Positions 2,542-48,654 of a DNA stretch of 64,000 nt are shown here, piece by piece (the stretch's first letter is position 1; each line of letters begins with the position of its first letter). The position numbers and the translations under genes were made by a program. This DNA comes from Sinomicrobium soli (lineage in GTDB: Bacteria > Bacteroidota > Bacteroidia > Flavobacteriales > Flavobacteriaceae), in NCBI RefSeq assembly GCF_003285545.1, contig NZ_QLNV01000001.1, forward strand, positions 124,001-188,000. Reading direction: 5' to 3'. Below the pieces are notes generated by a model. The model was not told the DNA's origin and searched no databases. It saw only the letters and a list, made by a program, of their open reading frames with translations.

Positions 2542-4704
2542 TCAGCGTTTAAAATTATACAAAAGCTTCAGATAAAAGGACCTTCCGTATCCCAGCAACA
2601 CATTGCCGGGAGGAGCACCGTGAGCTGTTCCTGAAACGGCAGTCGTGTTCACACTTACCACATCGAGCAGGTTCCTGGCCCCCGCAGTAAGTTCCAGTGT
2701 CTTGTTTAAAAAGGATTTCCTGATGCTGGCATCCCACCAGGTAAAGGCATCCTGTTCGCCTTTCATGTATACAGTATCCCCGGTATCGTTCGTCCGTTCT
2801 ACATATTGGGGCTGTTTGCCGTTGTATTTTAATTGTGTGGTCAATACGATCCCGTTGGCAGGTATCGTATAACTTACCATGACATTTGTGGTAAAATTAA
2901 AGAGATAGTCGTCCCTGCTCACCTCTTCCGCCCCGAGTTCCTGTGCAATGCCGATATAGCTGAGTCCCAACCCGGCCTGCAGGTTTTTGTAGTACAGTGT
3001 ATTTTCAAAGGATGCTCCGAGTACCCGGTGCCGGTCTATGTTCATATAGCGGAAACTGCCCCCGGGCGCCTCATTTCCCACCAGAATAAGGCTTATTTTG
3101 TCCTTGATATTAAAGTGAAACCCCTTGAGAGATTGTCTGAGCGTCACTTTATCCAGGTGCGACCGCTTTTCTATGGAAACCAGGGCAGAAAGCCCGTCTT
3201 CCGGCTTCAGGTCGGGGTTGCCCTGCACGTCGTGGTTGGCATCTACAAAATAATAGAACAACTGGGCAAATGTCGGGGTCTTATATGCCGAACCGAATAC
3301 GCCCTTCATCTTGATGTCGTCCGACAATTCATACCCGGCGGTCAGTCCCCATATCCAATGGGTACCATAACTCGAATTACTGTTGAGCCGCAGCCCCGGA
3401 TAAAGGGCAAGCCGGTCCGTAATATTCAGGTCGGCAGCGGCAAAAACATCATAGTTTTCCAGCCTTTTCTCCACAATGTCCCTGGAGTGCTCCCCACTGG
3501 CCGATACATCATATCCTTTCTGGTTTACAAGCTCGTACCCCAAGGTAAGATCAAAGAATTCCGATTTCGAAAAAATCCGGCTCAGTACACCCCTTGAGAA
3601 CAGCAGGTCGCTGGACTGGTCGGTGATATCCCGGGTCACCTCCTGTTTTCTTCGTTCCCCCACATTATACACATAGTCCTCATTATCCCGTTCCTGCTTC
3701 TGGAAAGAGAGTGCCAGGTTGTAGTTCATGGAATTCCACTTACCATCGGCATAGAGCTGATGTAAAAAACGGGAGGTGTTATATCGCTTGTCGTTTGCTG
3801 TAATCTTATAGACATTACCCTCTGCCCTGGCATTAACCACATGATCGTATATATCCAGAGTTTCGTCGTAGTACCCGAATTTATAATAGATATTGAAGCG
3901 CGGAGCGGTATAATACAGCCCCCCTGTAAGGTTGAGCTGTTCCTTCGGATTCCATTCATTGCCCCTGAGCCCGTCGTTTATCACGGAATTGTTCTGCGTC
4001 TTAAAATAGTTCTTTCCCCTGTAATTATTAAAAAAACCCTGGAAATCGTTCCGGTTAAAACCTGCGGCAACATACAACCTGTCGGAAATATTATGCCCCA
4101 TTTTCAGGGACTGAATATGTCTCCCCTGATCAGACCAGTCGTATTCTCCCCCGACAGTCTCTTCCTGGATCGCTGCCTCTACTTCCCATTGGCCTTCTGT
4201 CCCCTTTTTGGTCACTATATTGATTACCCCGGCAACAGCATTATCCCCATAGAGCACCCCCATCGATCCTTCAACCACCTCTATCCGTTCCACCTCATCG
4301 AGATTGATCTGGTTGATATCAATATTATTGCCATAACCATTATCACTGACCAGGGGTATGTTGTCTACCAGTATTTTTACGTACTCCCCTCCCAATCCGA
4401 ACATGCGCACGGTAGACCTGCCCGACTGTGCATCGGGAACAACATCGATATTCAACTGGTAATGAAGTATATCTGCCAGGTTATTACCGGCCAGTTTGTC
4501 GATATCCTGCCGGCTTATTTCGCTCACTGTAAACAGCTTTCCGGATACGCTCCCCCTTTTGTACTGGTCTGTCACTATAACCTCATGAAGGGTATTTACC
4601 TCCGTAACTGTCGTATCTGTCTCCACCTGGGAATACGCCTGATAAAATACCGGGACACTGAAAAAAAACAGGAATATTTTATGTCTTTGCAGGTATGCAT
4701 TCAT
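2542..4704 (-). CDS. hmuR: HmuR-like TonB-dependent haem receptor
   Basis: 720 residues. A signal peptide (ending near AYSQ, residue 26) is followed by a TonB box-like LHEVIVTD at about 39-46, a plug domain at about 55-165 (IDKLAGNNLADIL, VERIEVVEGSMGVLYGDNAV, GVINIVTKKG) and a beta-barrel ending in an outer-membrane C-terminus (FYLKLLYNF). It would import a haem-type substrate across the outer membrane using TonB energy. Pairing with the HmuY-like gene 7 bases downstream supports the haem assignment over a generic siderophore receptor. It lacks the N-terminal carboxypeptidase-regulatory domain seen in the two SusC proteins of this window. Confidence 0.9.
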   Translation of the reverse strand: MNAYLQRHKIFLFFFSVPVFYQAYSQVETDTTVTEVNTLHEVIVTDQYKRGSVSGKLFTVSEISRQDIDKLAGNNLADILHYQLNIDVVPDAQSGRSTVRMFGLGGEYVKILVDNIPLVSDNGYGNNIDINQINLDEVERIEVVEGSMGVLYGDNAVAGVINIVTKKGTEGQWEVEAAIQEETVGGEYDWSDQGRHIQSLKMGHNISDRLYVAAGFNRNDFQGFFNNYRGKNYFKTQNNSVINDGLRGNEWNPKEQLNLTGGLYYTAPRFNIYYKFGYYDETLDIYDHVVNARAEGNVYKITANDKRYNTSRFLHQLYADGKWNSMNYNLALSFQKQERDNEDYVYNVGERRKQEVTRDITDQSSDLLFSRGVLSRIFSKSEFFDLTLGYELVNQKGYDVSASGEHSRDIVEKRLENYDVFAAADLNITDRLALYPGLRLNSNSSYGTHWIWGLTAGYELSDDIKMKGVFGSAYKTPTFAQLFYYFVDANHDVQGNPDLKPEDGLSALVSIEKRSHLDKVTLRQSLKGFHFNIKDKISLILVGNEAPGGSFRYMNIDRHRVLGASFENTLYYKNLQAGLGLSYIGIAQELGAEEVSRDDYLFNFTTNVMVSYTIPANGIVLTTQLKYNGKQPQYVERTNDTGDTVYMKGEQDAFTWWDASIRKSFLNKTLELTAGARNLLDVVSVNTTAVSGTAHGAPPGNVLLGYGRSFYLKLLYNFKR

Positions 4705-7742: not shown

Positions 7743-8837
7743 TCAGCTTACCTTTTTATCTTTCGGTTCCCGTTTGTGCCAGTACGAGGCCAGTATAGAC
7801 CCGGTGATATTCATCAAAGGTCCGAAAATGGCAGGGGCCAGCCCCATCGTGGCAATCTTGCCTATCGAATTGGCTATCCCCGAAGCCAGTCCGCCATTCT
7901 GCATCCCCACCTCTATCGCAACCGTCCGTGCATCGCGCTCCGGTAGACGAAAAAGACGTGCATACCAATACCCCAGGGTATAGCCGAAAAGATTGTGAAA
8001 CAACACCAAAAGCAACAACACCAGACCTATGTCCAGAAGACTGTCCCTGCCCGCTGCCGTGATCACCACAATAATCAATGCTATACCCAGCATAGACACC
8101 ACCGGCATCGCCAGGTCCAGCCACCTGGCCTTACCGTGGAGCAGCTTGTTGAAAAGCAACCCCGCGCCTATGGGGATAATGATCATCTTGACGATATCCC
8201 ACATCATGGCCAGGACATCGATTTCTATAAACTCACCCGCCAGGAACTTCATCAGCACCGGAGTGAGGAACGGGGCCAACAGGGTGGCTATGGCGGTAAT
8301 CGTCAACGACAATGCCAGGTTGGCTTTGGCCAGATAAGCCATCACATTGGATGCCATACCGCTGGGAGAACAACCGATAAGCACAATACCCGCTGCGATT
8401 TCCGGGGGAAAATCACTCACACTGGCCAGTATAAAACCCGACAGGGGCATAATGATGAACTGGGCCGTCACCCCTATAAACACTCCTTTCGGAGCCTTGA
8501 TTACCGATTCGAAATCACGTGCGCTCATCGAGGTGCCCATACCAAACATTATGAGCTGTATCAGGGGGGTAATCAACCTCGTAAGCCTGAAGTCCCCTAC
8601 GGAAATGAAATACTCCGGGTAATACATGGCCAGGGATACTGCGGCAAAGATCATTATCGTATATACATATCCCCGCAAATGGGCAAAGCCGTAAAAACCA
8701 GCGGCCAGAGCCACAAAAAACAACACCAGGAAAGGGCCTGCATTGGCAATATGACCGGAAAGAACCATTACTGCATAAACCAGCAGCAACAGGGCAGCAA
8801 GTCCCAGCACTGTTAAAAACAATTTCTTCTTCTTCAA
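7743..8837 (-). CDS. Bile acid:sodium symporter (BASS) family transporter
   Basis: About 364 residues, with around ten hydrophobic segments and the family signature GCSPSGMASNV followed by a run of small residues. BASS proteins import organic acids (bile acids, pyruvate, pantoate and others) with sodium. The start is uncertain. An ATG at 8912 would overlap the upstream gene by 44 bases and put reversed-frame sequence of that gene at the N-terminus. A TTG at 8837 gives LKKKKLFLTVLGLAALLLL, a normal charged start before the first membrane segment, so I chose it. As the last gene of the SusC/SusD-dehydratase-RraA cluster, it may bring the periplasmic reaction product into the cell (inference). 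Confidence 0.85.
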   Translation of the reverse strand: MKKKKLFLTVLGLAALLLLVYAVMVLSGHIANAGPFLVLFFVALAAGFYGFAHLRGYVYTIMIFAAVSLAMYYPEYFISVGDFRLTRLITPLIQLIMFGMGTSMSARDFESVIKAPKGVFIGVTAQFIIMPLSGFILASVSDFPPEIAAGIVLIGCSPSGMASNVMAYLAKANLALSLTITAIATLLAPFLTPVLMKFLAGEFIEIDVLAMMWDIVKMIIIPIGAGLLFNKLLHGKARWLDLAMPVVSMLGIALIIVVITAAGRDSLLDIGLVLLLLVLFHNLFGYTLGYWYARLFRLPERDARTVAIEVGMQNGGLASGIANSIGKIATMGLAPAIFGPLMNITGSILASYWHKREPKDKKVS

Positions 8838-8868
8838 AACACGGGTGTTTAGAGGTTGAAAATAAAGG

Positions 8869-9357
8869 TTAAAACTTATACGCCTGACGGGCCAGGAGTT
8901 TCCACTTCCCATCCTTTTTTACATACACCAGCATATTGCCGATACGGATATCTACGGGCTCCCCGGCATGGGTAGCACGTGCCTCGAAGATATGGCGAAC
9001 GACAGCCGTATGCCCGCTCACGGTGATCTGCTGATCGGTAAAATCGACTTTCGTAAAATCAAAGGCGCCATTAACCAGGTCGTCCGTAAATGCAGTCCTG
9101 TCCTGGATGGTACCGTTGGAATGGCCATAGCTCAATTCGTCTGCCGTAAGATCATCGAGAACCCCGGTATCGGGAGAAACTATGGCTTCGCGTAACAGTT
9201 CCACGGCAGCTTCCACGGCCTTCATTTCCTGTTCAGGGGTAATCAATTCTTTCTTTTCTGCCTTAGCGGGCCCCTGTTGTTCTTTTTTGACCTCCGTACA
9301 GGAGACCAGCAGAACCAGGCAGCAGGTCAGCGCCCATATCTTTTGCAGTGTTTTCAT
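8869..9357 (-). CDS. SnoaL/DUF4440-like (NTF2 fold) lipoprotein
   Basis: 162 residues. The signal peptide ends in a lipobox (CCLVLLVSC), so it is a periplasmic or outer-membrane lipoprotein. Residues about 45-160 look like the NTF2-like/SnoaL fold, with an N-terminal helix pair, then DDLTADELSYGHSNG, a strand with VDFTDQQITVSG, HTAVVRHIFEARA, and the closing KDGKWKLLARQAYKF typical of DUF4440 proteins. Such proteins are small cone-shaped folds used as enzymes or binding modules; no catalytic residues can be assigned. It sits between the RraA-like gene and the BASS transporter on the same strand. Confidence 0.8.
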   Translation of the reverse strand: MKTLQKIWALTCCLVLLVSCTEVKKEQQGPAKAEKKELITPEQEMKAVEAAVELLREAIVSPDTGVLDDLTADELSYGHSNGTIQDRTAFTDDLVNGAFDFTKVDFTDQQITVSGHTAVVRHIFEARATHAGEPVDIRIGNMLVYVKKDGKWKLLARQAYKF

Positions 9358-9380
9358 AATTTATTGTCTTTAACTATCTT

Positions 9381-9520
9381 TTATTTCAAATACCTATACG
9401 GATCCCTGAACTGCTTCCATAAGCCTGCCAGGTATTTCAGCTGAAAACCGAAAATGGTGTCTTCCTGCTCTCTCCGTTCTTCGGTCCGGTAATCTCCATT
9501 TTCTTCAGTCCGTACCTGTT
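9381..9520 (-). other. Spacer with protein-like reading frame, possible small gene remnant
   Basis: Downstream of the RraA-like stop (9524), one minus-strand frame ends in FGFQLKYLAGLWKQFRDPYRYLK followed by a stop at 9381. This looks like a genuine protein C-terminus, but the frame has no good start after the RraA gene. An ATG in another frame (MEITGPKNGESRKTP) would need a frameshift to join it. It may be a decayed small gene or chance. Confidence 0.25.
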
Positions 9521-9523
9521 CCG

Positions 9524-10462
9524 TTATAAATACTTGTGTTCTTTGAGGTAATCGTTGAGTTCTTCCCTCGTCATCGGTAGTTTGCTGTCCGGGTACCGCC
9601 CCAGCCACTCCACAAAATCCTTTTTAATCACATCCGTCCACTGGGTATCGATCTGGCCTGCCGTATATTTCTTCTCCTTCAGCCGCTGAAAACCGAACTG
9701 GTCACGAAGATTGGTCACCTCCGAAGAGATCACCAGGTCGTTTAACAGATATGCCGGGATAAAAACCACACCATACCGGTTGGCCAGTACCACATCACCG
9801 GGCAATACGATAGCCCGGCCAATACGGATCGGGGCATTGATGGACGTCAGCATTTCCTGTTGCAGGTACGACGGGTCGTCCCCGCGGAACCAGCCGTTGA
9901 AATCCTCTATTTCCACCAGACCGGCAAGGTCCCGTACCCCGGCATCAAAGACAAAACCGTTCTGAGAATTCGCATAGATCGCATTGCCCAGGTTAGAACC
10001 TATCAGTGTACCGTCAATAACACGGCCGTATCCATCGGCCACATACACATCTCCAGGTTGCAGGATCTCTATGGGCCAGGAATTGCTCCCCCCGATCGTA
10101 TCCCGGTTTTCCCGGGCACCCTGTATTTTGACCACCTTGTCAAAATCCGGGCGCAGGGGCATGTATTGTGCCGTCAGCACCCTCCCGGTCAGCACCCGGT
10201 CGTCATGGACCATTTTCCACCCGCCTTCGTACTGGTTGTGAAACCCCTTCCCCCGGAGAAAGCCCCAGGCCTCTTCTACATTAATGGCCTTTAATCGTTC
10301 CAGGAGAGCATCGGATACCTTGGGACGACCGTCTTCAAGCCGTTCTCCCTTCCATCGGGAGGTAAGGGTTTTTACATATTCCGGAGGCGAAGTCACATGC
10401 TGGGCAGAAAGTCCCAGCGACACCAGTATCAGGACAAGGCTTACTATGTTCGTCTTATTCAT
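9524..10462 (-). CDS. Exported RraA-family protein (aldolase-like)
   Basis: 312 residues with a clear signal peptide (MNKTNIVSLVLILVSLGLSAQ), so it should be periplasmic. RraA-fold signatures are present: SNSWPIEILQPGDVYVADG, GNAIYANSQNGFVFDAGVRD (the DGxxRD-type site) and PGDVVLANRYGVVFIP. Family members include 4-hydroxy-4-methyl-2-oxoglutarate/oxaloacetate lyases as well as the RNase E regulator RraA; the metal-linked aldolase role fits better here. It is about 100 residues longer than a minimal RraA protein. It lies 49 bases after the dehydratase gene, suggesting that it acts on the keto-deoxy acid that enzyme would make. Export of this family is unusual. Confidence 0.85.
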   Translation of the reverse strand: MNKTNIVSLVLILVSLGLSAQHVTSPPEYVKTLTSRWKGERLEDGRPKVSDALLERLKAINVEEAWGFLRGKGFHNQYEGGWKMVHDDRVLTGRVLTAQYMPLRPDFDKVVKIQGARENRDTIGGSNSWPIEILQPGDVYVADGYGRVIDGTLIGSNLGNAIYANSQNGFVFDAGVRDLAGLVEIEDFNGWFRGDDPSYLQQEMLTSINAPIRIGRAIVLPGDVVLANRYGVVFIPAYLLNDLVISSEVTNLRDQFGFQRLKEKKYTAGQIDTQWTDVIKKDFVEWLGRYPDSKLPMTREELNDYLKEHKYL

Positions 10463-10511
10463 GTCTTTTGTCTTTTAAAAAATTGATTTGTTTTTCGGGA
10501 TAATTTTTCCC

Positions 10512-12011
10512 CTAACTGTACGTCCTGTCGTGCGAACGAACCTCATCCCATTCCTTCGTTGGGGCGAAGAAGGTCTTATCACTCGGATGGAGGTGTTCCC
10601 TGACCACATCTTCATTCAGTTCTATACCCAGTCCCGGGGCGGTCAACGGCACCGGGGCAAACCCCTTGTCTATCATCTTTCCGCCACCGGTCATCGTCAC
10701 GAGATCTTCCCACCACGGGAGGTCTACCGAATGGTGCTCCAGGGCCAGGAAATTCTGGGTAGCCGCAGCACAGTGCACATTGGCCATAAAAGATACCGGG
10801 GTACCCGCCTGGTGCATGGCCATGGCGATACCGAACTCTTCCGCATAATCCCCGATACGCTTGGTCTCCAGTAATCCGCCCGAAGAAGCCAGGTCGGGAT
10901 GGATAATATCTACTGCACGGTTATGGATCAACGGAAGAAAATCTTTCAGCAGGTAAATATCCTCTCCTGTTGCCGTGGGGGTCTCTATGGCCTCACTGAT
11001 CGTTTTCCACTGTTCGTGGTACTGCCACGGCACCATGTCTTCAAACCAGGCCAGCCGGTATGGGTCCAGCTTACGGGCCAGGCGGATTCCGTTGTTCAGG
11101 TCGAAATGCCCATAATGATCCGTAGAAATAGGGATCTCGTAACCCACCATGTTACGCACATTTTCCACTATTGCCGCCAGTTCGTCCAGCCCCTTTTCCG
11201 TAATCTGGATCTGTGTAAAGGGGTGTTTGGCATTGGCATATGACATCGGGTTCTGCCGGTCGCCCCATTGGGCCAGGTTCCCTTTGCTGTCTTCCCAGAA
11301 TTTCGAATTCACCACCGTTCCCGGCCGGCCCTTCAATTCTCCTATGGAAACATCCATCTTCAGCCATGTATACCCCTGATCCTTGATCCGGTAGTTGATC
11401 AGCTTCTGCTGCTCTTCGGGGGAATGAGCCTCCGGGGTATCGGCATACAAGCGTACCTTATCCCGGTAACGCCCTCCCAGCAATTGCCAGGCCGGTACGT
11501 CATAGGCCTTGCCGCAGATATCCCATAAGGCCATCTCCACGGCACAGACACCTCCCGCCTGCCTTGCAGGGCCGCCGAACTGTTTAATGACCTTGAAGAT
11601 CTTTTCCACGTTGCAGGGATTTCTGCCCAGGATACGGCTCTTAAGCATCAGGGCATAACGCACATCGGCAGCATCACGCACTTCGCCCAGCCCGTATATC
11701 CCCTGGTTGGTATCGATGCGGATAATGGCCGTGCCCCCCATAACGTTGGTCAGGGCATAGCGCATATCGGTGATTTTCAGGTCTGAAGGAGCGGAACTCC
11801 GTTTCACCTTAGACGTGGTCTGTGCCATGGTATCCTCGAGAGACAGTCCCATAAATCCCGCAAGGCCGATACCACCAAGGGCCGTTTTTTTCAAAAAATT
11901 CCGGCGGGCAGATCCCGTATCCGCACTATCCATCTCAGCCCGGCGCGATGCCGCATAGGCCTTTTCTTCTGCTTTGTTTTTGGCAATAAGACGCCTTAAC
12001 TCACTTTTCAT
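10512..12011 (-). CDS. Tat-exported enolase-superfamily sugar-acid dehydratase
   Basis: 499 residues. A 35-residue lead-in is followed by a twin-arginine signal (ARRNFLKKTALGGIGLAGF, residues 35-53). The mandelate racemase/muconate lactonizing fold follows. The N-terminal cap is at about 80-190. The barrel has a catalytic Lys at 218 (WLKMD), metal or acid/base residues in STDHYGHFD (D298, H299), WFED (E324) and TGED (E350), and the general base His in AMHQAGTP (H400). This arrangement resembles galactonate/mannonate dehydratases. The expected reaction is dehydration of an aldonic or uronic acid to a 2-keto-3-deoxy acid, but in the periplasm. It follows susD by 43 bases. The substrate cannot be read from the sequence. 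Confidence 0.9.
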   Translation of the reverse strand: MKSELRRLIAKNKAEEKAYAASRRAEMDSADTGSARRNFLKKTALGGIGLAGFMGLSLEDTMAQTTSKVKRSSAPSDLKITDMRYALTNVMGGTAIIRIDTNQGIYGLGEVRDAADVRYALMLKSRILGRNPCNVEKIFKVIKQFGGPARQAGGVCAVEMALWDICGKAYDVPAWQLLGGRYRDKVRLYADTPEAHSPEEQQKLINYRIKDQGYTWLKMDVSIGELKGRPGTVVNSKFWEDSKGNLAQWGDRQNPMSYANAKHPFTQIQITEKGLDELAAIVENVRNMVGYEIPISTDHYGHFDLNNGIRLARKLDPYRLAWFEDMVPWQYHEQWKTISEAIETPTATGEDIYLLKDFLPLIHNRAVDIIHPDLASSGGLLETKRIGDYAEEFGIAMAMHQAGTPVSFMANVHCAAATQNFLALEHHSVDLPWWEDLVTMTGGGKMIDKGFAPVPLTAPGLGIELNEDVVREHLHPSDKTFFAPTKEWDEVRSHDRTYS

Positions 12012-12054
12012 AAGTTTTTGTTTTTAGATTGGTAAATATGTTTTTGTAATTATA

Positions 12055-13572
12055 CTACTGGTCCCACCAGACCCTGGTGTCCAGGTTATCCGGCCCCATC
12101 CGGGATACGGCTTCGCTGATGTGTTCCCCGTTTACGGCCAGTTCTGCACTCGGATAGGTAATCCTGCGGATAAACTCACCGGTAATATCCTGTCCCGGAT
12201 ACGGGTTGGGGGCAAGGTCGGGATAGCCGGTTCTCCTGAAATTGGCATAGGCTTCCGGCCCGTTCAGGAAACAGGCTACCCAATACTGGTCATACAATTG
12301 CTCCAGGGAGCCCCCGTAAGGATGATCGGCTATATACTGGTCTATATCCGCAGCGGGTATGGCGCTACCGGGGTCGTATTCGGCCATGAGTTCCATGTGT
12401 GCCCTTACCCCCTCTTCAAAGTAGGTGGCCGGGTCTCCGGACACCCATCCGTAGGTGGCCGCTTCGGCCAGCAGTAAGCGGGTTTGTGCATGGGTAACCA
12501 GGTACATGGGGGCCCCGATCTTTACCATACGGGTACGATCTGCCTGGCTGAAATCATAGAAGCTTGCCAATCCCCCGGCAGATACGGCTTGTCCTATGGT
12601 ACTGTTGTCGTGCCCCATAGGCATCCCTATCTGGTCTGCCGGATCTGTAGACGCATTGGCCGGGACCTGTTCTGTTCCGGATGCCGCTCCCACATAGCGG
12701 ACAGCTATGGAACCCAGCCTGGGGTCGTCCGTATTCGCAAGAAAATCTACAAAAGTATCCACCAGGTAAAAATTATTGGCTTCGGAACCGTTCAGGAAGT
12801 TCCCTATAGGATTGGTAAAATTGCTGTCGTGACGGATGACATAATTATCTTCGTTAGATGTCATTACCCCACCGGCAAAAGCATCTTCCACGGTTTGCCG
12901 GGCAAGGGTTTCATCGGCATTGATAATGTGTATTCCCAGGCGAAGCAGCAGGGAGTTTCCCATTTTACGCCATTTCCCGAGGTCACCTCCGTAGAGTATT
13001 TCCCCGGTCACCGCATTGCCGTTGTCGTCGAGGGCTGCTACGGCCTCTTTTACTTCCTTGATCAGGTCGCTGTAGATCTCCTGCTGCGGATCGTACGCGG
13101 GCAGTACGATCTGGTCGGAAATCCCCTTCCCGGCTTCGGAATACGGAATATCGCCATAGCTGTCCGTAAGTACCATAAACGTAAATGCCTGTATGATCCG
13201 CGTCATCTGCAACAGGTTGGAATATTGCGGGTCGTCCTGTATCCGGCTCATCAGATCGCCTGTATTTTTTATAACGGTTTCGTAATAATCATCCCAGACT
13301 TCCGCCGAAGCGAAACGGTTGTCCTGGTTGTGATTGCCCCCGGTAAGCAACCCGGAATTGGGGGTAACAAGCTGCTGTACTATGGCGGCATCGTATTTGA
13401 GCTGCCCGGTAGCAAAGGAAGTCCCTATCACGGCATTGTTAAATAGAAATACCGGGTCTACTTCGGTCGGATCTACATCGTTGGTATTGATCTCTTCAAA
13501 ATCCTTTTCACAGGCTGTGTTCAGTAAGGAAAACACTACTGCAAAAACAAAATATACTGTATTTTTTATCAT
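12055..13572 (-). CDS. SusD/RagB-family surface lipoprotein
   Basis: 505 residues with a lipobox (LLNTAC) after a signal peptide, then the SusD-like_2 architecture of four TPR-like helical pairs. Markers include CEKDFEEINTNDVDPTEVDP after the lipid Cys, MLTDSYGDIPYSEA-like text (VLTDSYGDIPYSEAGKG), GNSLLLRLGIHI, LLLAEAATYGWV and a closing Trp motif (RVWWDQ). SusD proteins form the lid of the SusC transporter and bind the glycan or acid oligomer outside the cell. It starts 12 bases after susC. Confidence 0.93.
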   Translation of the reverse strand: MIKNTVYFVFAVVFSLLNTACEKDFEEINTNDVDPTEVDPVFLFNNAVIGTSFATGQLKYDAAIVQQLVTPNSGLLTGGNHNQDNRFASAEVWDDYYETVIKNTGDLMSRIQDDPQYSNLLQMTRIIQAFTFMVLTDSYGDIPYSEAGKGISDQIVLPAYDPQQEIYSDLIKEVKEAVAALDDNGNAVTGEILYGGDLGKWRKMGNSLLLRLGIHIINADETLARQTVEDAFAGGVMTSNEDNYVIRHDSNFTNPIGNFLNGSEANNFYLVDTFVDFLANTDDPRLGSIAVRYVGAASGTEQVPANASTDPADQIGMPMGHDNSTIGQAVSAGGLASFYDFSQADRTRMVKIGAPMYLVTHAQTRLLLAEAATYGWVSGDPATYFEEGVRAHMELMAEYDPGSAIPAADIDQYIADHPYGGSLEQLYDQYWVACFLNGPEAYANFRRTGYPDLAPNPYPGQDITGEFIRRITYPSAELAVNGEHISEAVSRMGPDNLDTRVWWDQ

Positions 13573-13584
13573 GGTTCCCTTTTT

Positions 13585-16500
13585 TTAGAATTTTAAGTTC
13601 AGGTTAAACCCCATACTACGGGTTGTAGGCACACCGGTTGATTCAAGTCCGGAAACATTATCCGAACTGAATGCAAAAGAATCCGGATCTATATTGTCTA
13701 CCCATTTTTTCAGAATGAGGACATTATTGGCCACGATACTGAGTTTGGCCCCCTTGATAAAAGATCTTTCGGGAATGAGCTTATGAAAATCATAACCTAT
13801 GGTAATCTGCCGCAATTTCCAGAACCCTCCGTTATATACAATGGGTTCGATGAGCTGTGATGCCCGTACTACTTCCCAGTACTGCTGGGACTCCGTAGCT
13901 ACCGTATTGGGTTGTCCCTGCAGATTGACTCCTTCCCCCACAACACCGGTCTCCCTTCCGGGTAAGGTCATTTTATGCAATCCGTGGCGAACGGCATTGA
14001 AGTTGGTGCCGGAGATCATCTTGTTTCCCAGTTTGAAATCTATGAGAAAAGAGAGGTTAAAATCCTTATAACGGAAGGTATTGGTAATCCCTCCCGTCCA
14101 TTTGGGCAGGGCACTGCCAAAGAATACGATATCTTCGGTAGGCAGGGCCCTGCCGTCGTTACCGAAAATGCGGCGTCCCTGTTCGTCTCTCCGGTATCCG
14201 AAACCGGCAAGCTGACCGATCTCCTGCCCCACTACCTGGTATAAAAAACCGTTGAATATGTGCTCTCCTACCAGTATCCTGTCTCCCGGTTCGTCGGTGA
14301 GCAGGCTCAATACCTTGGTTTTATTGTAAGAACCGTTGATGTTCAGGTTCCACTGAAAATCATCGTTTTTAACAGGGATGACATTTAAAAGGGCCTCAAA
14401 ACCATCACTCCGGCTCTCCCCGCTGTTTATCAGGGTATTGGTAAACCCTGAGGTATTGGAAATCTGGGCAGGGATGATCTGGTCTTTGGTTATTTTGCGG
14501 TAAACGGCCACATCCAGGTTCACCCTGCTTTCAAACATCCGGATATCCAGCCCTATTTCAGCCTCATTGGTGCGCATGGGCTTGAGATCCGGGTTGGGCA
14601 ACGTACTGGTATTGGCCCCTGCAACGGGCTGAGTACTACCGTCAGGGCCGGTAAAGAAGTTGGGGTCGATATCATAGAAAAGCACATTGGAATACGGCGG
14701 TACATCCGTATCGCTCCCTACCTGTGCATAGGCAAACCGGAGCTTACCGAAAGACAACCACTCCGGCTTATTGGTAAACATATTGGAGAATACGTAGCTT
14801 CCGGATACGGACGGATAGAATATGCTGCGGTTCTCCGGTGCCAGGGTAGAAAACCAGTCGTTCCTGAAGGTACCACTGAGGTAATAGGTATCTTTCCAGG
14901 AAAGGTCTACCGCGCCATACACCGAGTTTACCGCTCTTTCGGAAATGGCATAGGCAGGATCCTTTACACGACCGTTTTGTACGGTATAGAGATCGCGTAT
15001 CACAAAATCGGTCACATCGACCCGGTTGATATCCATACGGCGCTTCATCCGGTTTCCTCCCAGGTTAACCCCCAGACCGAAGTCTTCCCCGAATTCCTTA
15101 TCAGCCGAGAAAAGGATATCCATATTGGTTTCGCGAAACCTTCGCGCTTCCTGGGTATAGGTACCGTTAACAAATCCGTCCGGGGCCGGCCCACGGGAGG
15201 CCTGCCCGGTAGGGAAGCCATTATAATCCTGGTCTCTGGACCAGTAATCCTGCCCGACCCTTCCTTGTACGAAAAGCCAGGGCAACAGGTTGTATTTAAC
15301 GGCTACATTACCGAAAATACGATCTCTTTTTATGTTATTGAACTGTTCCGCCAATGTAAAATAAGGGTTTGTACGGTTGCGAAAACGCGAATACACATAT
15401 TCGTTACCACTTGCATCGTATTTATACCGTTCCAGTACATCCAGGGACATGGAATTGGCCAGGTTGTAGATGGAAACGGGAATGGTATTGTCCTGCTGTC
15501 CTACGTTGGGCGGATTGGTATTTATTTCATTGGAGTAATTGACGTGTACATTCACATTCAGCTTATCTGAAAAATCATGGGTCACCCCCAGGCTTACGGT
15601 TTTTCGTTCAAATTCATTGTTCGGGGTAATCCCCTGGCTTTTGAGGTTTGCAAGGGACAGGTTAAACCCTCCTTTCTCCCCACCGCCGGCAATGGATACG
15701 GAATTGGTGACATCGAGCCCGTCCCTGTAAAATTTCTTTATCCGGTTCCGTTGCGGAACATAGGGTACTTCCACCCCGTCAAACAATATCTGGGTCATCC
15801 CGGGTTCAAACCGTTCCCCGAAAGACCATTGTCCGGAAGTCGGGTTGGCCGAAGTGGGCCGCATACCGTTTTCACCCTGCCCGTATTCGTACTGGAAATC
15901 GGTAAAATCCAGCGGGGTATGGTTAGTGACATTAAGGTTGTAGGTAACACCAAGCCCTTCTCCCTCACCCCTGGTCTTGGTGGTGATCATAATGACCCCG
16001 TCCTTAGCCCTGGAACCGTAAAGTGCGGCGGCGGTAGCTCCTTTCAGGACTGTCATATTTTCTATATCGTCCGGGTTAATACTGGAAAAACCATCTCCCC
16101 CGTCGGAGTATACCCCACCGTCGCTGATACCCGGTTCCCCGCCGGTACTTCCGGGATTAGTCCCGAAAGATGTATTGTCAATAGGCACGCCGTTCACCAC
16201 AATCAGCGGGCTGTTGGTCCCGGAGATAGACGACTGCCCCCGGATACGTACCTTGGATGATCCGCCGGGGCCACTGCCCAGCGCGGAAATATTCACCCCG
16301 GCAACCTTACCCTGAAGGCTGTTCATAAAATTGGAAGAACGGTTTACATTGACTTCCCCCGGTTCCACTTCCGAAACAGCATACCCCAGTTTGCGGGATT
16401 CCCTTTTTATCCCCAGTGCGGTAACAACGACGACATCCAGGGTCTGCACGTCTTCTCTCAATGTGACATCTATTGTCGTCCGGTCACCTACCGTTTCCCT

Positions 16501-17097
16501 TACCTGCTTCATTCCTATGTACGTAAAGACCAGTACGGCATCCGTACCCGGGATGTCTATATCGTATTTTCCGTCAAAATCGGTCACTGTTCCTATGGTG
16601 GTCCCTTCTACCAGGACATTTACTCCGGGCATGGGAACTCCCTGTTCATCCGTCACGGTCCCGTTTACCGTTACCTGTACGGTATCATGACGATCATTAC
16701 CACCATTGTTACCGGACAGGAAACTTTCTAATTTGCCATTATCCATCTTCAGGATAATCTGTTTATTCAGGGTTTCATAGACAATGGAGGTCCCTTTAAA
16801 GAGTTTGTTCAGCACCCGGGACAACGGCACCTCATTAAAATCTACGGAAACCCGTCTTTTGTAATCCACTTCCCGGTCGTTGTACAATACTTTGTACTCG
16901 GTCTGTGTTTCGATCTCCTTGAGTACCTTTTCGAGGGCTACATCCTCAAAGTGCAGTGAAATTTTCACATCCAGCGAAAAGTTTTCTGCCTGTACCTGGA
17001 ACAAAAATGCCGCGAAGAAACAGATCAGGAGTTTCATCTTTAAGTCAAACTTTAATGCGTAAATAAATACACTCCCTGACTTCAGAAGGTTTTTCAT
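13585..17097 (-). CDS. SusC/RagA-family TonB-linked transporter with signalling (STN) domain
   Basis: 1170 residues from the ATG at 17097 (MKNLLKSGS). Another in-frame ATG at 17139 would add 14 residues; 17097 gives the N-terminus usual for this subfamily, with the signal MKLLICFFAAFLFQ near residue 21. Domains: STN about 58-118, carboxypeptidase-regulatory-like about 145-215 (GVPMPGVNVLVEGTTIGTVT), TonB box-like DVVVVTALG about 221-229, plug about 230-360 (VLKGATAAALYGSRAKDG), then the barrel ending in FNLNLKF. The STN domain normally contacts a FecR-type anti-sigma factor, and that gene lies directly upstream. So this protein should both import substrate and signal to the ECF sigma factor. 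Confidence 0.95.
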   Translation of the reverse strand: MKNLLKSGSVFIYALKFDLKMKLLICFFAAFLFQVQAENFSLDVKISLHFEDVALEKVLKEIETQTEYKVLYNDREVDYKRRVSVDFNEVPLSRVLNKLFKGTSIVYETLNKQIILKMDNGKLESFLSGNNGGNDRHDTVQVTVNGTVTDEQGVPMPGVNVLVEGTTIGTVTDFDGKYDIDIPGTDAVLVFTYIGMKQVRETVGDRTTIDVTLREDVQTLDVVVVTALGIKRESRKLGYAVSEVEPGEVNVNRSSNFMNSLQGKVAGVNISALGSGPGGSSKVRIRGQSSISGTNSPLIVVNGVPIDNTSFGTNPGSTGGEPGISDGGVYSDGGDGFSSINPDDIENMTVLKGATAAALYGSRAKDGVIMITTKTRGEGEGLGVTYNLNVTNHTPLDFTDFQYEYGQGENGMRPTSANPTSGQWSFGERFEPGMTQILFDGVEVPYVPQRNRIKKFYRDGLDVTNSVSIAGGGEKGGFNLSLANLKSQGITPNNEFERKTVSLGVTHDFSDKLNVNVHVNYSNEINTNPPNVGQQDNTIPVSIYNLANSMSLDVLERYKYDASGNEYVYSRFRNRTNPYFTLAEQFNNIKRDRIFGNVAVKYNLLPWLFVQGRVGQDYWSRDQDYNGFPTGQASRGPAPDGFVNGTYTQEARRFRETNMDILFSADKEFGEDFGLGVNLGGNRMKRRMDINRVDVTDFVIRDLYTVQNGRVKDPAYAISERAVNSVYGAVDLSWKDTYYLSGTFRNDWFSTLAPENRSIFYPSVSGSYVFSNMFTNKPEWLSFGKLRFAYAQVGSDTDVPPYSNVLFYDIDPNFFTGPDGSTQPVAGANTSTLPNPDLKPMRTNEAEIGLDIRMFESRVNLDVAVYRKITKDQIIPAQISNTSGFTNTLINSGESRSDGFEALLNVIPVKNDDFQWNLNINGSYNKTKVLSLLTDEPGDRILVGEHIFNGFLYQVVGQEIGQLAGFGYRRDEQGRRIFGNDGRALPTEDIVFFGSALPKWTGGITNTFRYKDFNLSFLIDFKLGNKMISGTNFNAVRHGLHKMTLPGRETGVVGEGVNLQGQPNTVATESQQYWEVVRASQLIEPIVYNGGFWKLRQITIGYDFHKLIPERSFIKGAKLSIVANNVLILKKWVDNIDPDSFAFSSDNVSGLESTGVPTTRSMGFNLNLKF

Positions 17098-17184
17098 ATC
17101 TTTGTTTTGGTTTATGTGGTTAAACATTGTTTTAATCACTCCATTTCAAATCGGAGGATGTGCCACCATCTTCCGGTTTTTTTT
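17097..17184 (+). ncRNA. Candidate antisense RNA over the susC start
   Basis: A plus-strand TATCTTTG at 17097-17104 matches the -7 consensus. A plus-strand hairpin at 17152-17176 (CGGAGGATG pairing with CATCTTCCG through one G-U pair) is followed by eight T residues. The hairpin pairs less well in the minus direction. Together they predict an RNA of about 74 nt (near 17111-17184), complementary to the susC leader. No gene on the plus strand needs this terminator. Antisense RNAs beside susC genes are known from Bacteroides. A -33 element was not found. Confidence 0.4.
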
Positions 17185-17335: not shown

Positions 17336-18523
17336 TTACGGGCTAATCACAATGCTATCGCCCCGGACCGTGTATTCAAAAGGATAATTTCTCCCAAAAT
17401 AATTCAGGATGTTTTCTACAGATTCGCCCTCAAAGCCTGCTGTAAATATTTCTTTGTCCAGGTTTTTATTCTTATTGATTATGGCAATATCATAATACCT
17501 TTCAAGTCTTCTCAGTATTTCGCCGAAAACTACATGATTAAAAATGAGTTTACCTTCTATCCATCCGGTATACACCCCGGTATCGACATCTTCGAAGGAA
17601 ATATCTTTTTGTGTTTTATCCCACGTAGCCTTTTGCCCGGGTACCATCCGGGGGGCTTTTTCCGGGTTATAGTCTTTTCCTTTTTCAAAAAGGGCTACCG
17701 ATCCTTCGAGTAAAACAGTGTGTATGCGCGATTCTTCCTTATATGAATTGACCACAAACCTGGTACCGAGCACCTGTATGTTAATACCGTCTGTTTCTAC
17801 CACAAAGGGTTGTTCCGGATTTTTCTCCACATCAAAATAAGCCTCCCCTTCCAGGAATACCTGCCGGTTTCCTTCTCCTGTGAAATGTATAGGGTACTTT
17901 AAAGAAGACCCGGCATTGAGGTTCACGGTCGTACCGTCGGAAAGGATGAGTTCAAAAGTCTTTCCGAAAGGAATCTGTATTTCGTGATATTCCGGTACAG
18001 TTGTATTAACGGCTTTTTCCGTTTTCCGGTAATTGATACTCCTTCCGCGCCGTACACCTATTATTCCTCCGCTCCTGTCCTTGATGGCCCCGTCCGCTGT
18101 CTCCTCCAGTACTGTAATACTGCCATCGGGCAACCGAAGGGTTATGTGCTGTTCTCCGGCTACGGCATCCGCAGGGGGTTCGCCGGATAAATGATCCCGG
18201 AAAAAGAAATAACCGATGGCAATAAAGCCTGCAAATACAGCGGCTATCCTGGCCCAGCTATACAGGTACCTGACTTTTTTGTCCGGCGGGCGGATCGCTG
18301 CTTCTATTTTTTTCCAGTCTTTATCCCTGGTTTTACAGAGCTCTTTTGCAATTTTGTGCTGCGCCTCTATCTTAACCGGATCGGAAAGGTGTTCTATGAC
18401 ATAATCCCTGTCTTCATCACTGAAAAGGTCACCTTCAATATCCGTTCGTTCTATCCGCTTCCCCCGCAAGATCATGTCGGCAAGCTTTATGGCTGTTTTT
18501 ACCATTTTATCGAAATGGATCAT
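17336..18523 (-). CDS. FecR-family anti-sigma factor
   Basis: 395 residues. The N-terminal cytoplasmic region (1-85) binds the sigma factor, one membrane segment is at about 88-108 (WARIAAVFAGFIAIGYFFF), and the periplasmic FecR domain is at about 175-290 (IPFGKTFELILSDGTTVNLN, GEAYFDVEKN, VLGTRFVVNSY). A DUF4974-type C-terminal domain at about 325-392 probably meets the STN domain of SusC. It lies between the ECF sigma gene and susC on the same strand, the standard order. The 196-base gap to susC contains the candidate antisense RNA. Confidence 0.95.
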   Translation of the reverse strand: MIHFDKMVKTAIKLADMILRGKRIERTDIEGDLFSDEDRDYVIEHLSDPVKIEAQHKIAKELCKTRDKDWKKIEAAIRPPDKKVRYLYSWARIAAVFAGFIAIGYFFFRDHLSGEPPADAVAGEQHITLRLPDGSITVLEETADGAIKDRSGGIIGVRRGRSINYRKTEKAVNTTVPEYHEIQIPFGKTFELILSDGTTVNLNAGSSLKYPIHFTGEGNRQVFLEGEAYFDVEKNPEQPFVVETDGINIQVLGTRFVVNSYKEESRIHTVLLEGSVALFEKGKDYNPEKAPRMVPGQKATWDKTQKDISFEDVDTGVYTGWIEGKLIFNHVVFGEILRRLERYYDIAIINKNKNLDKEIFTAGFEGESVENILNYFGRNYPFEYTVRGDSIVISP

Positions 18524-18752: not shown

Positions 18753-19298
18753 CTACAGCAATGAAAACAGCACCGAGAACACTCCTTTCAACATTACCCT
18801 GAGCTTGCTATAGGCTATGCGTTTCTGTGCTTTGACGGTATTGACGGAAATAGATAATGCCTGGGAAATTTCGTCGTTTTTATATCCCTTTAAACTGAGG
18901 TTTATGATTTCTTTACACTTATAGGGTAACATATCCACCGCCTCGCGGATTATTTTGGAAGACTCCTCAAGCAATACTTCCCGTGCAAAAAAGGAATCGG
19001 ATTCCAGTTTTTTCAGGTCGGCGGCCTCCAAAGGGTTCTTGCTCCTGTATTCCTTGCTTTTAAGATAATCGAGAGACTTGTTCTTCACCGCAGTATACAA
19101 GTATGATTTCGCAGCGTTCTCATCGCGGAAAACAACTTCCGTGTCCCAGACACGGATAAATACCTCCTGTACGATATCTTTTGAAATTTCAATATCACCC
19201 ACGTATTTACCGGCAAACAAACAGAGGGAATCATAAAAGGTATTGAATAACACCTTGTATTTACGAATCGAGATTTTACGGGGATTCACAGACTTCAA
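18753..19298 (-). CDS. ECF RNA polymerase sigma-70 factor (FecI/SusC-linked type)
   Basis: 181 residues. Region 2 is at about 20-88 (YVGDIEISKDIVQEVFIRVWD, SYLYTAVKNKSLDYLK) and region 4 at about 118-170 (LPYKCKEIINLSLKGYKNDEI, SVNTVKAQKRIAYSKL). Its placement directly before fecR and susC predicts that it drives the susC-susD-dehydratase operon when the anti-sigma factor is relieved by substrate. It starts a minus-strand series of eight genes. The 229-base gap before fecR shows no gene. Confidence 0.95.
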   Translation of the reverse strand: MKSVNPRKISIRKYKVLFNTFYDSLCLFAGKYVGDIEISKDIVQEVFIRVWDTEVVFRDENAAKSYLYTAVKNKSLDYLKSKEYRSKNPLEAADLKKLESDSFFAREVLLEESSKIIREAVDMLPYKCKEIINLSLKGYKNDEISQALSISVNTVKAQKRIAYSKLRVMLKGVFSVLFSLL

Positions 19299-45321: not shown

Positions 45322-45352
45322 TTGTTATCGTTATTTTTTTTACACATATTTG
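45322..45352 (+). promoter_or_regulatory. Promoter of the isolated susC/susD pair
   Basis: TTG (45322-45324) and, 20 bases on, CATATTTG (45345-45352), which is one mismatch from TAnnTTTG. The transcript would start near 45359, about 23 bases before the ATG at 45382. An apparent longer frame starting at 45322 would begin inside this promoter. Confidence 0.5.
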
Positions 45353-45381
45353 ACGAACTAATTCAAAATATTCACTTGAAC

Positions 45382-48300
45382 ATGAGAACAAAAATCAGTT
45401 TAATTTTAACGTTATTTTTGACGTTAACTGTGCACTATCTATCTTATGCACAGGAAAAAACCGTTTCAGGTACGGTTAACGATGCTTCCGGCTTACCGCT
45501 TCCGGGAGCCAATGTTTTGGTCAAGGGTACCACTACAGGGACCCAGACCGATTTTGACGGTAACTTCACTTTAACTGCCAGCCAAGGGCAGACCCTGGTG
45601 ATCTCGTATATAGGGATGAAGACCCAGGAAGTACAAATAGGAGCTTCATCGAATATAACAGTAACCCTTGAAGAGGATGCGGAGAGCCTGGAAGAAGTTG
45701 TGGTTACGGCTTTGGGGATAACCCGGGAAAAGAAATCGTTGGGATATGCCACTCAGGAAGTAGGTGGTGATGAGGTAAACACTGCCAAGGAAACCAATTT
45801 TGTCAATTCTCTTTCTGGTAAAGTTGCCGGGTTGGATATTAAGAAAAGTAGCACTCTTGGAGGTTCATCCAATGTAATATTACGTGGGTATTCTTCTCTT
45901 ACAGGAAACAACCAGGCGCTTTTTGTTATTGACGGTACACCCATAAGTAACTCGAACACAAATACTGACAACCAAATGTCTGGTAGAGGTGGTTATGATT
46001 ATGGTAATGCTGCCATGGATGTCAATCCTGAGGACATTGAAAGCATCAACGTTCTTAAGGGAGCTGCAGCAACAGCACTCTACGGTTCCAGAGCAGCTAA
46101 TGGTGCGATTATCATAACTACTAAAAAAGGTAAGACTCAAAAAGGCATCGGAGTAACCATTAATTCAGGAATAACCTTTGGCTCCTACGACAAAGACACT
46201 TTTTCCAAGTACCAAAAAGAATACGGTGCAGGATACGGGAAATATTACGGAGATGATGAAGCTTCCTACTTCAACGATTTTGATGTAAATGGTGATGGGG
46301 TGAAAGATCTGGTAACACCATTTGGCGAAGATGCATCCTTTGGAGGACGATTTGACCCCAATTTAATGATATATCAATGGGATGCTTTTTATCCGGAATC
46401 TCCAAACTATATGAAAGCTACACCTTGGGTTGGTGCGAAGCATGGACCGGAGTATATATTTCAGACTTCAACCACATTTACCAACAGCGTATCCCTATCA
46501 GGAGGTAATGAAGACGGATCTTTCCGCATGGGGTATACCAATCTGGATCAAGAAGGTTTATTACCCAATAGTAAGTTAAAGAGAAATTCCATTGATTTTA
46601 ATGGTTCATATAATTTTACCGATAAACTTACAGCTTCTGCTAAAGCCACATTTACGAAAACTGACGGCAAAGGGCGGGAAGGTACAGGATACAGTGGACG
46701 AAACCTTATGCAAAGCATGCTACAATGGAACCAGTCCAACGTAGATTTCAAAGATCAAAGAGATGCTTATTTTGCAACTCGTCGAAATATAACCTGGAAC
46801 TATGCATCGATAAATCCGGACGACCCATTGTACCTCTTCCCTCTTTATACGGATAACCCGTATTGGGAACGATATGAAAATTATCAAAATGACACCAGAA
46901 ACAGATTATTCGGTAATATTTCTTTGGATTATGAGATCAATGACTGGATTTCTGCTACAGCCCGTGTTTCTTTAGATACATACAGTGACTTAAGGGAAGA
47001 AAGGATTGCGGTTGGAAGTAAAGACGTATCAGAATATCAAAGATATAATGGTAATTACACCGAACTGAACTATGACCTTTTACTTAATTTCCGCAAGGAT
47101 TTCAGTGAAAAATTCAATTTTAACGGTACTTTAGGAGCCACTAAAAGAACTCTGTCACAAGACTATATTACCGCTCAGACTAATGGGGGACTGGTCATTC
47201 CAAGACTTTATTCGCTCTCCAATTCAGTAAATTTACTGGAACCTCCTTTGGAAGAACGTTCAGAACTGGTTGCAGACGGTTATTTCACCAGTCTTTCTTT
47301 TGGCTATAATGATCTCTTGTTTCTGGATCTGACGGGTCGTATAGATAAGTCGTCAACACTCCCTACTGATGACAACACTTATTTTTACCCTTCGGCATCT
47401 ACAGCTTTTGTATTTTCCAATCTAATTGACAGTGAATGGCTTACTTTCGGTAAGTTCCGGGCAAACTATGCTGAAGTTGGGAACTATGCCCCGCCATTAT
47501 CGGTATATACCGTATTCGACGCGCCGACAAATTTCAAAGTACCAATGTTCTCGTATGCTACATACGTAAACAACAACGTATTAAAAAATGAAACTACAAC
47601 GAGCTTGGAACTTGGCTTGGAAATGGCTTTTTTCCAAAGACGATTAGGATTTGACTTTGCAGCCTATAAGAACAATTCCAAAGACCAGATCCAACCTATC
47701 AGGGTTTCAGACGCATCGGGAGCATCCTATAAATGGGTAAACTCTGGAGAAATTGAAAACAAGGGCCTGGAAGTAAATCTTTATGGATCTCCCATTAGAA
47801 CCGAAGATTTTGAATGGAAGGTAAATATCAACTGGTACAAGAACCAAAGTGAAGTATTATCCCTTTATGAGGGCGTTAACAATTACGAAATGGCGAGTTA
47901 CCAGGGAGGAGTTTCCATCAATGCTACCGTTGGAGAACAATATGGTTCAATTTGGGGGTCAAATTTTGTATACCTCGATGGAGAACGTGTAGTTGACCCT
48001 GAAACAGGTGCATATTTGGTAGATACTGCTGCGCAGCCTATTGGTAATATAAATCCAGACTGGAAAGGTGGTATTCAGAACATGCTCAGATATAAGAATC
48101 TTTCATTGGGCTTCCTTATAGATGTACAGAGAGGTGGAGATATCTTCTCATTAGATTCCTGGTATGGATATTCAACAGGGATATTCCCGGAAACTGCAGG
48201 TCTTAACGACCTTGGAAACCCAAAAAGGGATCCAATTGTACAGAATGATGACGGGTCTTATGCTGCAAATAGCGGTGGTATTATCCTTCCCGGTGTAAAT

Positions 48301-48651: not shown

Positions 48652-48654
48652 ACG

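Follow-up and report, generated by a model that had tools for sequence, protein, structure and literature searches.

A candidate periplasmic sugar-acid breakdown module attached to a SusCD system in Sinomicrobium soli

Textbooks place the dehydration and cleavage of sugar acids in the cytoplasm, and members of the MR/MLE and RraA families usually lack export signals. A locus of Sinomicrobium soli raises the question of whether both steps could take place in the periplasm. It lies in a stretch of 64,000 nt (GCF_003285545.1, NZ_QLNV01000001.1:124,001-188,000, forward strand), hereafter the window, where a minus-strand run of eight genes encodes an ECF sigma factor, FecR, SusC, SusD, an enolase-superfamily enzyme of the MR/MLE type (MR), an RraA-family protein, a DUF4440 protein and a BASS transporter. 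In our view this locus is best explained as a module that breaks down sugar acids in the periplasm, and we give this explanation an even chance of being correct. In such a module, SusCD would carry a substrate over the outer membrane, under the control of the ECF sigma/FecR pair; MR, exported by the twin-arginine translocation (Tat) system, would dehydrate an aldonate or, less likely, another sugar acid to a 2-keto-3-deoxy acid; RraA, exported by Sec, would act on that product, most likely cleaving it to pyruvate and an aldehyde; and a sodium-coupled BASS carrier would import the resulting acid. Gene content, export signals and the conservation of MR with RraA were read from the sequence, while the dehydration, the class of sugar acid, the aldol cleavage and the cargo of BASS are what we infer.

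Export signals of MR and RraA

A scan of genome contigs retrieved 157 loci encoding a relative, of which the best 80 (73-93% identity) were used; these are close kin and non-independent, and many are truncated by contig ends, 59 of them having at least 4.5 kb on either side (the well-covered loci). Neighbouring genes outside the window's own families were named from one representative per cluster of sequences. The representatives of UxuA, KDPG aldolase and a UxuB-like SDR scored over an NCBIfam cutoff, and those of a KdgK-like kinase, a pyrroloquinoline quinone (PQQ) dehydrogenase and an aldehyde dehydrogenase under all NCBIfam cutoffs.

The window MR (10512..12011, minus strand; PF02746 7.4e-11, PF13378 1.9e-46), a predicted sugar-acid dehydratase, bears the twin-arginine sequence RRNFLKK starting at residue 36, and its genome encodes TatC (4.0e-67), so that the motif of a Tat substrate and the machinery to export it are both present. 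The pattern recurs in 79 of 80 open reading frames (ORFs) for MR of the window's type (main-type MR); the only one of these without it, in L059, is truncated by the contig end. The 80 ORFs comprise that of the window and a single ORF from each of 79 loci, with L057, whose ORF is split, and a second, cut copy in L055 left out. With a limit of 70 residues the count is 78 of 80.

RraA (9524..10462, minus strand; PF03737 2.9e-15), a predicted class II pyruvate aldolase, carries a Sec-type signal, which was called by a simple hydropathy rule requiring a strongly hydrophobic N-terminus and not by a trained predictor. By this rule 101 of the 107 RraA ORFs of the loci are positive, the window's included; among the six that fail, four are fragments or cut, and two fall narrowly below the threshold. 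The rule passes just one of the 80 MR ORFs because Tat signals are less hydrophobic than Sec signals, and export of MR was called from the twin-arginine motif alone. Among control neighbours from five cytosolic-type families (FAH-family, KdgK-like, KDPG aldolase, UxuB-like and aldehyde dehydrogenase), 0/61 have a hydrophobic start and 0/61 a twin-arginine pattern; the hydropathy rule also flags two of five FGGY kinases and two of 18 UxuA.

Taken together, these results support the export of both MR and RraA, and the Tat and Sec signals that a preliminary description of the window had assigned to them are borne out. The same holds for the DUF4440/SnoaL-like protein (8869..9357, minus strand; PF14534 1.5e-18), described there as a lipoprotein, the window copy of which has the lipobox LVSC. 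A simple lipobox pattern is found in 19 of 48 DUF4440 ORFs and missing from 29, and the YGHS motif of the window protein recurs in many relatives. One could still suppose that MR and RraA work in the cytoplasm and that their N-terminal signals are non-functional, as might be expected from the usual lack of signals among relatives of both families, the preliminary description having noted that both families normally act in the cytoplasm. Set against the counts for MR, RraA and the controls given above, and against the presence of TatC, we regard this as highly improbable.

MR and RraA stay together while their neighbours vary

In the DNA available around the 80 loci, 74 have RraA at most 2.5 kb from MR. 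Other genes found in these loci are BASS (50), DUF4440 (47), a strong SusC match (44), a second type of MR (33), UxuA (18), an FAH-family gene (15), a PQQ dehydrogenase (14), a UxuB-like gene (11) and an aldehyde dehydrogenase (9). Within the 59 well-covered loci, RraA is present in 56, BASS in 42 and both in 41. A sample of 296 genomes of the phylum, less biased than the 80 loci, contains MR in 12 genomes (counted at E <=1e-100) and RraA in 18 (E <=1e-40), and in 12/12 MR genomes, the window's included, an RraA row lies at most 310 bp from MR. MR and RraA are thus conserved as a pair, whereas the genes around them differ from locus to locus.

The link with BASS is looser than that between MR and RraA. 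It lies within 3 kb of an RraA in 13 of the 18 RraA genomes of the phylum sample, and when the window BASS was used there as a single query, 14 of the 25 rows at E 1e-100, the window's included, fell within 3 kb of an RraA. A neighbourhood search for exported MR/MLE, exported RraA and BASS, a check that had been suggested at the outset, finds that the layout recurs, with the three genes often together. We dropped a higher figure from a profile search (14 of 16 near RraA), which is partly circular, the profile having been built from the BASS of such loci and seven of the 16 rows having been included in it. A PQQ dehydrogenase was ruled out as a required part, since it occurs in just 14 of the 80 loci and is absent from the genome of the window. 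In the closest relative, Sinomicrobium pectinilyticum, a PQQ-dependent dehydrogenase lies between RraA and DUF4440 (L002:8699-12260).

The exported partner of RraA also varies. In a class sample of 395 genomes, RraA is present in 14 at E 1e-70; the phylum sample had already contained eight of these, so that six were added. Every RraA row of the two samples, minus the window's own, gives 34 neighbourhoods with up to seven genes on each side. BASS occurs in 15 of the 34, which rules out that every RraA locus has it. The twin-arginine partner is a main-type MR in 14 neighbourhoods, a second-type MR in 11, a SelA/DgaE-like pyridoxal-phosphate (PLP) protein in five (L132, L133, L137, L154 and L159, which have no MR) and none in four (L135, which has a PQQ dehydrogenase, L140, and L143 and L157, both on contigs <5 kb). 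In L132 and L133 the PLP protein scores 196.7 and 163.4 bits with the DgaE model TIGR01437, below its cutoff of 385.3, and an amidohydrolase scores 451.4 and 457.9 bits, over the PRK09237 cutoff of 371. An amidohydrolase is labelled in all five DgaE-like loci, RidA in four (not L133) and BASS in four. These five sets, among them those at L132:5527-11216 and L133:9485-12009, possibly represent a periplasmic amino-sugar-acid route. DgaE itself converts D-glucosaminate-6-phosphate to a 2-keto-3-deoxy acid phosphate (PMC9529869).

UxuA-family copies with a twin-arginine signal occur at L147:12599-14865 and L151:5081-6160 and in L055, L056, L061 and L068; of the 18 UxuA copies clustered from the 80 loci, 14 have no such signal. 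The row of L147 comprises a KDPG aldolase, a KdgK-like kinase, a gluconolactonase-like gene, a PQQ dehydrogenase, MR, BASS, MR, RraA and two exported UxuA-family genes.

Enolase-type, UxuA-type and DgaE-type enzymes are unrelated, yet each would yield a 2-keto-3-deoxy acid. A common product is the simplest reason for their sharing RraA, and it best accounts for RraA as an aldolase. That RraA also accompanies an exported DgaE-like PLP lyase lends weight to the proposal of a 2-keto-3-deoxy acid as its substrate. A wider reading, which we hold tentatively and at somewhat less than even confidence, is that of a periplasmic counterpart to the entry into the Entner-Doudoroff pathway. Here, interchangeable exported front ends, namely two enolase-type dehydratases, a UxuA-type dehydratase and a PLP-dependent DgaE-type lyase accompanied by an exported amidohydrolase and, as a rule, by RidA, would convert sugar or amino-sugar acids to 2-keto-3-deoxy acids in the periplasm. 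The products would pass to a single exported RraA-type aldolase and, in the majority of these genomes, to BASS.

The gene unit, its enzymes and its transporter

The preliminary description named five genes at 7743-13572 on the minus strand, and Pfam matches agree with the family given for each; the unit is larger than it stated, with SusC, FecR and the ECF sigma factor added. The genes preceding MR on that strand encode a Bacteroidota-type ECF sigma-70 factor (18753..19298; TIGR02985 133.5 bits, cutoff 126.4), a FecR-family anti-sigma factor (17336..18523; PF04773 8.9e-19, PF16344 3.3e-15), a SusC-type TonB-dependent outer-membrane transporter with an STN domain (13585..17139; TIGR04056 674.5 bits, cutoff 368.25; PF07660 4.2e-11) and a SusD-like lipoprotein (12055..13572; PF12771 2.3e-78, PF12741 1e-57). 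The SusC and SusD matches, TIGR04056 over its cutoff and PF12771, give the SusC/SusD pair expected of a polysaccharide utilization locus, and a Pfam family search of the eight ORFs of the unit found no glycoside hydrolase or polysaccharide lyase family. Because the gaps from SusC to DUF4440 measure only 12 to 166 bases, these genes are likely to share one transcript. BASS (7743..8912, minus strand; PF01758 9.7e-40) may truly start at TTG 8837 rather than ATG 8912, as the latter falls within the DUF4440 gene. Scans for promoters (21, shuffle mean 18.4, standard deviation 5.2) and terminators (23, shuffle mean 15.2, standard deviation 3.5) were set aside. Elsewhere in the window, a second SusC/SusD-like pair is encoded at 45322-50106 on the plus strand, and a TonB-dependent receptor (2542-4704) with an adjoining lipoprotein (1320-2534), read from the ORF list alone, is possibly a haem-uptake pair.

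Both domains of MR exceed their gathering scores (MR_MLE N domain 42.7 bits, gathering 22; C domain 159, gathering 29.4), and all 16 aligned members have K218, D220, D298, E324, E350, H371 and H400, with D298, E324 and E350 at the three acidic metal-ligand positions of the enolase superfamily; MR thus belongs to its MR/MLE group. Its third-strand motif is D298-H-Y300-G-H302, and D-H-(Y/F/W/T)-G-H among main-type relatives. The second-type MR found in relatives has D-M-H-G-R/K at this place, is separated from the main type by a ~30-residue insertion, and is galactonate-dehydratase-like (239.1 bits, under the cutoff of 311). Among curated models MR scores highest with those for galactonate, gluconate/galactonate and mannonate dehydratase and stays far under each cutoff (D-mannonate dehydratase ManD, NF043051: 156.6 bits, cutoff 550); the nearest solved structure, 2QQ6, is annotated only as MR/MLE-like. 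An AlphaFold2 model of MR (mean pLDDT 39.3) was set aside, its 16 input rows probably being too alike. Main-type MR is a distinct subgroup, and dehydration of a sugar acid is its predicted reaction. The window genome has six MR_MLE_C matches. Contigs of Pedobacter/Sphingobacterium metagenome-assembled genomes (L055, L057, L061) have several different MR/MLE genes arranged in tandem, with an RR pair near the start wherever the N-terminus is complete, and an MR match with two in-frame stops (G286:C43:70467-71915) is apparently a broken copy.

The AlphaFold2 model of RraA (pLDDT 87.7) matches, by Foldseek, RraAS2 (5X15), 3K4I and the HMG/CHA aldolase 3NOJ (E 5.4e-13, 20% identity). It shares the RraA fold with the latter, and its R177-D178 aligns with Arg123-Asp124 of that enzyme, whose roles there are stabilisation of the pyruvate enolate (Arg123) and metal binding (Asp124) (PMC5065237). 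We aligned 140 RraA ORFs, namely the window's, 103 from the 80 loci and 36 from the neighbourhoods of the phylum and class samples; R177 is kept in 140/140 and D178 in 139/140, and in the 36 ORFs of the phylum and class samples in 36 and 35, respectively. The exception, in L140, comes from a neighbourhood without a recognised partner. The alignment with the HMG/CHA aldolase stops at R253, opposite Glu199, the second acidic ligand, and the next position, D254, is Asp in 139 of 140. RraA shows the RraA-like fold and the adjacent Arg-Asp pair of HMG/CHA-type class II pyruvate aldolases, and it is most likely, by prediction, a metal-dependent pyruvate aldolase. It is the only PF03737 match in the window genome. 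A split second-type RraA at L034:15733-16611 is apparently a broken copy.

BASS belongs to its family by its Pfam SBF score (136.7 bits, gathering 24.3) and by its cross-over motifs, the helix cross-over keeping S-N, E and Q-N as in ASBT_NM, PanS and plant BASS proteins (PMC10645422). It is PanS/ASBT_NM-like: its best PDB match is ASBT_NM (3ZUY, E 4.8e-66), with a match that begins only at residue 95. It stays below the cutoffs of NCBIfam TIGR00841 (235.9 bits, cutoff 326.3) and of the pantoate/ketopantoate transporter model PanS NF047939 (231.5 bits, cutoff 400). ASBT_NM binds pantoate. In plants, the BASS proteins that carry pyruvate, glycolate and 2-keto acids are reported to have Ser at the Asn265 position and Gln at the Thr112 position (PMC10645422). 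Of the 64 BASS ORFs found in the loci, 63 have Asn at the Asn265 position (one was not matched by the pattern), and the Thr112 position departs from the known proteins, being Val in 29, Leu in 10, Met in eight and Thr in one, with 16 not matched. The cargo would be either a short acid or an uncut sugar acid.

Rival readings and known pathways

Several results weigh against periplasmic breakdown as proposed here. MR reaches no curated NCBIfam dehydratase cutoff, its best model being galactonate dehydratase PRK14017 (185.4 bits, cutoff 311), which leaves its role as a dehydratase putative. Furthermore, the third-strand His of the D-x-H motif of D-galactonate and D-mannonate dehydratases is replaced in MR; the catalytic set, described earlier as complete, holds at D298, E324, E350, K218, D220 and H400 and departs at this His (D-H-Y-G-H). 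RraA is under every NCBIfam cutoff (LigK equivalog 52.4 bits, cutoff 304.5) and has Ser156 at the position of Asp102 of the HMG/CHA aldolase, where the 140 aligned ORFs have Asp in 76 and Ser in 58 (the window's and 57 others). A PF01011 (PQQ) dehydrogenase, as a source of aldonate, is absent from the window genome. Of the 59 well-covered loci, 17 lack BASS; 11 of the 25 close BASS relatives are not near an RraA, nor are six weaker rows, and the Asn of BASS is of the pantoate-binding type, unlike the plant keto-acid carriers. Two further points, a precedent for other chemistry in the RraA family and the presence of a KDG-kinase-like gene in 14 and of a KDPG aldolase in 12 of the 80 loci, are taken up below.

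The replaced His motif, together with the ~30-residue insertion relative to second-type MR, bears on a different role for MR, that of an epimerase, a cycloisomerase or an eliminating enzyme whose substrate would be a uronic-acid residue within an imported oligosaccharide and not a free acid. SusCD systems usually import oligosaccharides, and D-H-(Y/F/W/T)-G-H is unlike the motif of D-galactonate and D-mannonate dehydratases. Cycloisomerases do occur in the enolase superfamily (PMC5698469). On the other side, none of the eight genes of the unit belongs to a glycoside hydrolase or lyase family, the top models of MR are sugar-acid dehydratases, even if under cutoff, and the second-type MR standing beside the main type in relatives is galactonate-dehydratase-like and has D-M-H-G-R/K. 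We consider such a role for MR unlikely.

The main rival to periplasmic cleavage is that the acid is imported uncut. The 2-keto-3-deoxy product of MR would enter whole through BASS and, once in the cytoplasm, would be phosphorylated by a KDG kinase and cleaved by a KDPG aldolase, with RraA performing another step or acting on a side product. Where the KdgK-like gene occurs, it follows BASS directly in 12 of its 14 loci, with the KDPG aldolase then in 12 of 14, and uptake of an uncut six-carbon acid is therefore favoured in these relatives; BASS may import such an acid. The aldolase representative is over its cutoff (the kinase is under all), and L147 has both genes in a row with MR, BASS and RraA. 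The window genome also encodes, elsewhere, one KDPG-aldolase-family gene, adjoining a KdgK-like kinase, an SDR and ORFs read as KduI and a TRAP transporter; this set (L167:9467-12953, G000 contig C3) is a separate uronate-type cluster of the same genome. The other step of RraA could resemble that of FlDet from Flavobacterium sp. UMI-01, an RraA-family 2-keto-3-deoxy-glucarate dehydratase/decarboxylase, which is the precedent for other chemistry in the family and the reason why cleavage by RraA stands as a prediction (PMC8563752). FlDet, however, acts on a hexarate and has an unprocessed N-terminal Met (PMC8563752), and is hence probably cytosolic. Moreover, MR is coupled more tightly with RraA (74 of the 80 loci) than with the kinase (14 of 80), and no KdgK label appears among the displayed neighbours of four loci with a DgaE-like lyase, RraA and BASS. 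Whole import is in our view possible but doubtful. As for the periplasmic dehydration, cleavage and keto-acid import put forward in the preliminary description, the export signals, the joint conservation and the frequent linkage with SusCD and BASS speak for it, while the failed dehydratase cutoff, the FlDet precedent, the Asn of BASS and the loci with a KDG kinase speak against it.

Sugar-acid pathways of the Entner-Doudoroff type use a D-galactonate or D-gluconate dehydratase, KDG kinase and KDPG aldolase. The proposed periplasmic module resembles them in the predicted path from sugar acid through 2-keto-3-deoxy acid to pyruvate, and in the KdgK-like and KDPG aldolase genes near the loci of some relatives; it differs in that the window MR and RraA carry export signals and import would come after the chemistry. 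The carrageenan route DauA-DauD of Zobellia is likewise encoded by a flavobacterial locus in which an enolase-superfamily enzyme, DauB, gives a 2-keto-3-deoxy sugar acid ahead of a kinase and an aldolase; there, however, uptake of the monosaccharide precedes oxidation, while the window MR has a Tat signal (PMC5698469). DauB (5OLC) is a distant match to MR (88.9 bits). Within Zobellia, Z. amurskyensis carries a locus related to that of the window (L040), and deletion mutants are reported for Z. galactanivorans (PMC5698469). From the HMG/CHA aldolase the window RraA differs by being exported, by its 20% identity and by Ser at the Asp102 position. FlDet shares with it the family, a flavobacterial origin and a 2-keto-3-deoxy sugar acid as substrate; compared by description, it has 237 residues, and its gene has those for an alpha-KGSA dehydrogenase and for an alginate lyase as neighbours (PMC8563752). 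Quinate oxidation in acetic acid bacteria also has a dehydratase that follows in the route, with a different class of substrate, and the available part of the source mentions no SusCD or BASS and does not place the dehydratase in the periplasm (PMC9171043).

The preliminary description knew of no well-described pathway with this layout, and we likewise found no published description of an MR/RraA/SusCD/BASS layout in the open-licence papers searched, nor any among them combining 'mandelate racemase' with 'SusD'. The chemistry is known; the location and the combination are new. If the periplasmic module is real, the usual annotation of carbohydrate use in Bacteroidota, with SusCD and hydrolases outside and sugar catabolism inside, overlooks a class of pathway. 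A role would then be found for the generically named exported enzymes of the enolase-superfamily, RraA, RidA and PLP types, as well as for SusCD pairs without an adjoining carbohydrate-cleaving enzyme. In the wider reading as a counterpart to Entner-Doudoroff entry, carbon would enter across the inner membrane as a small acid, not as a sugar.

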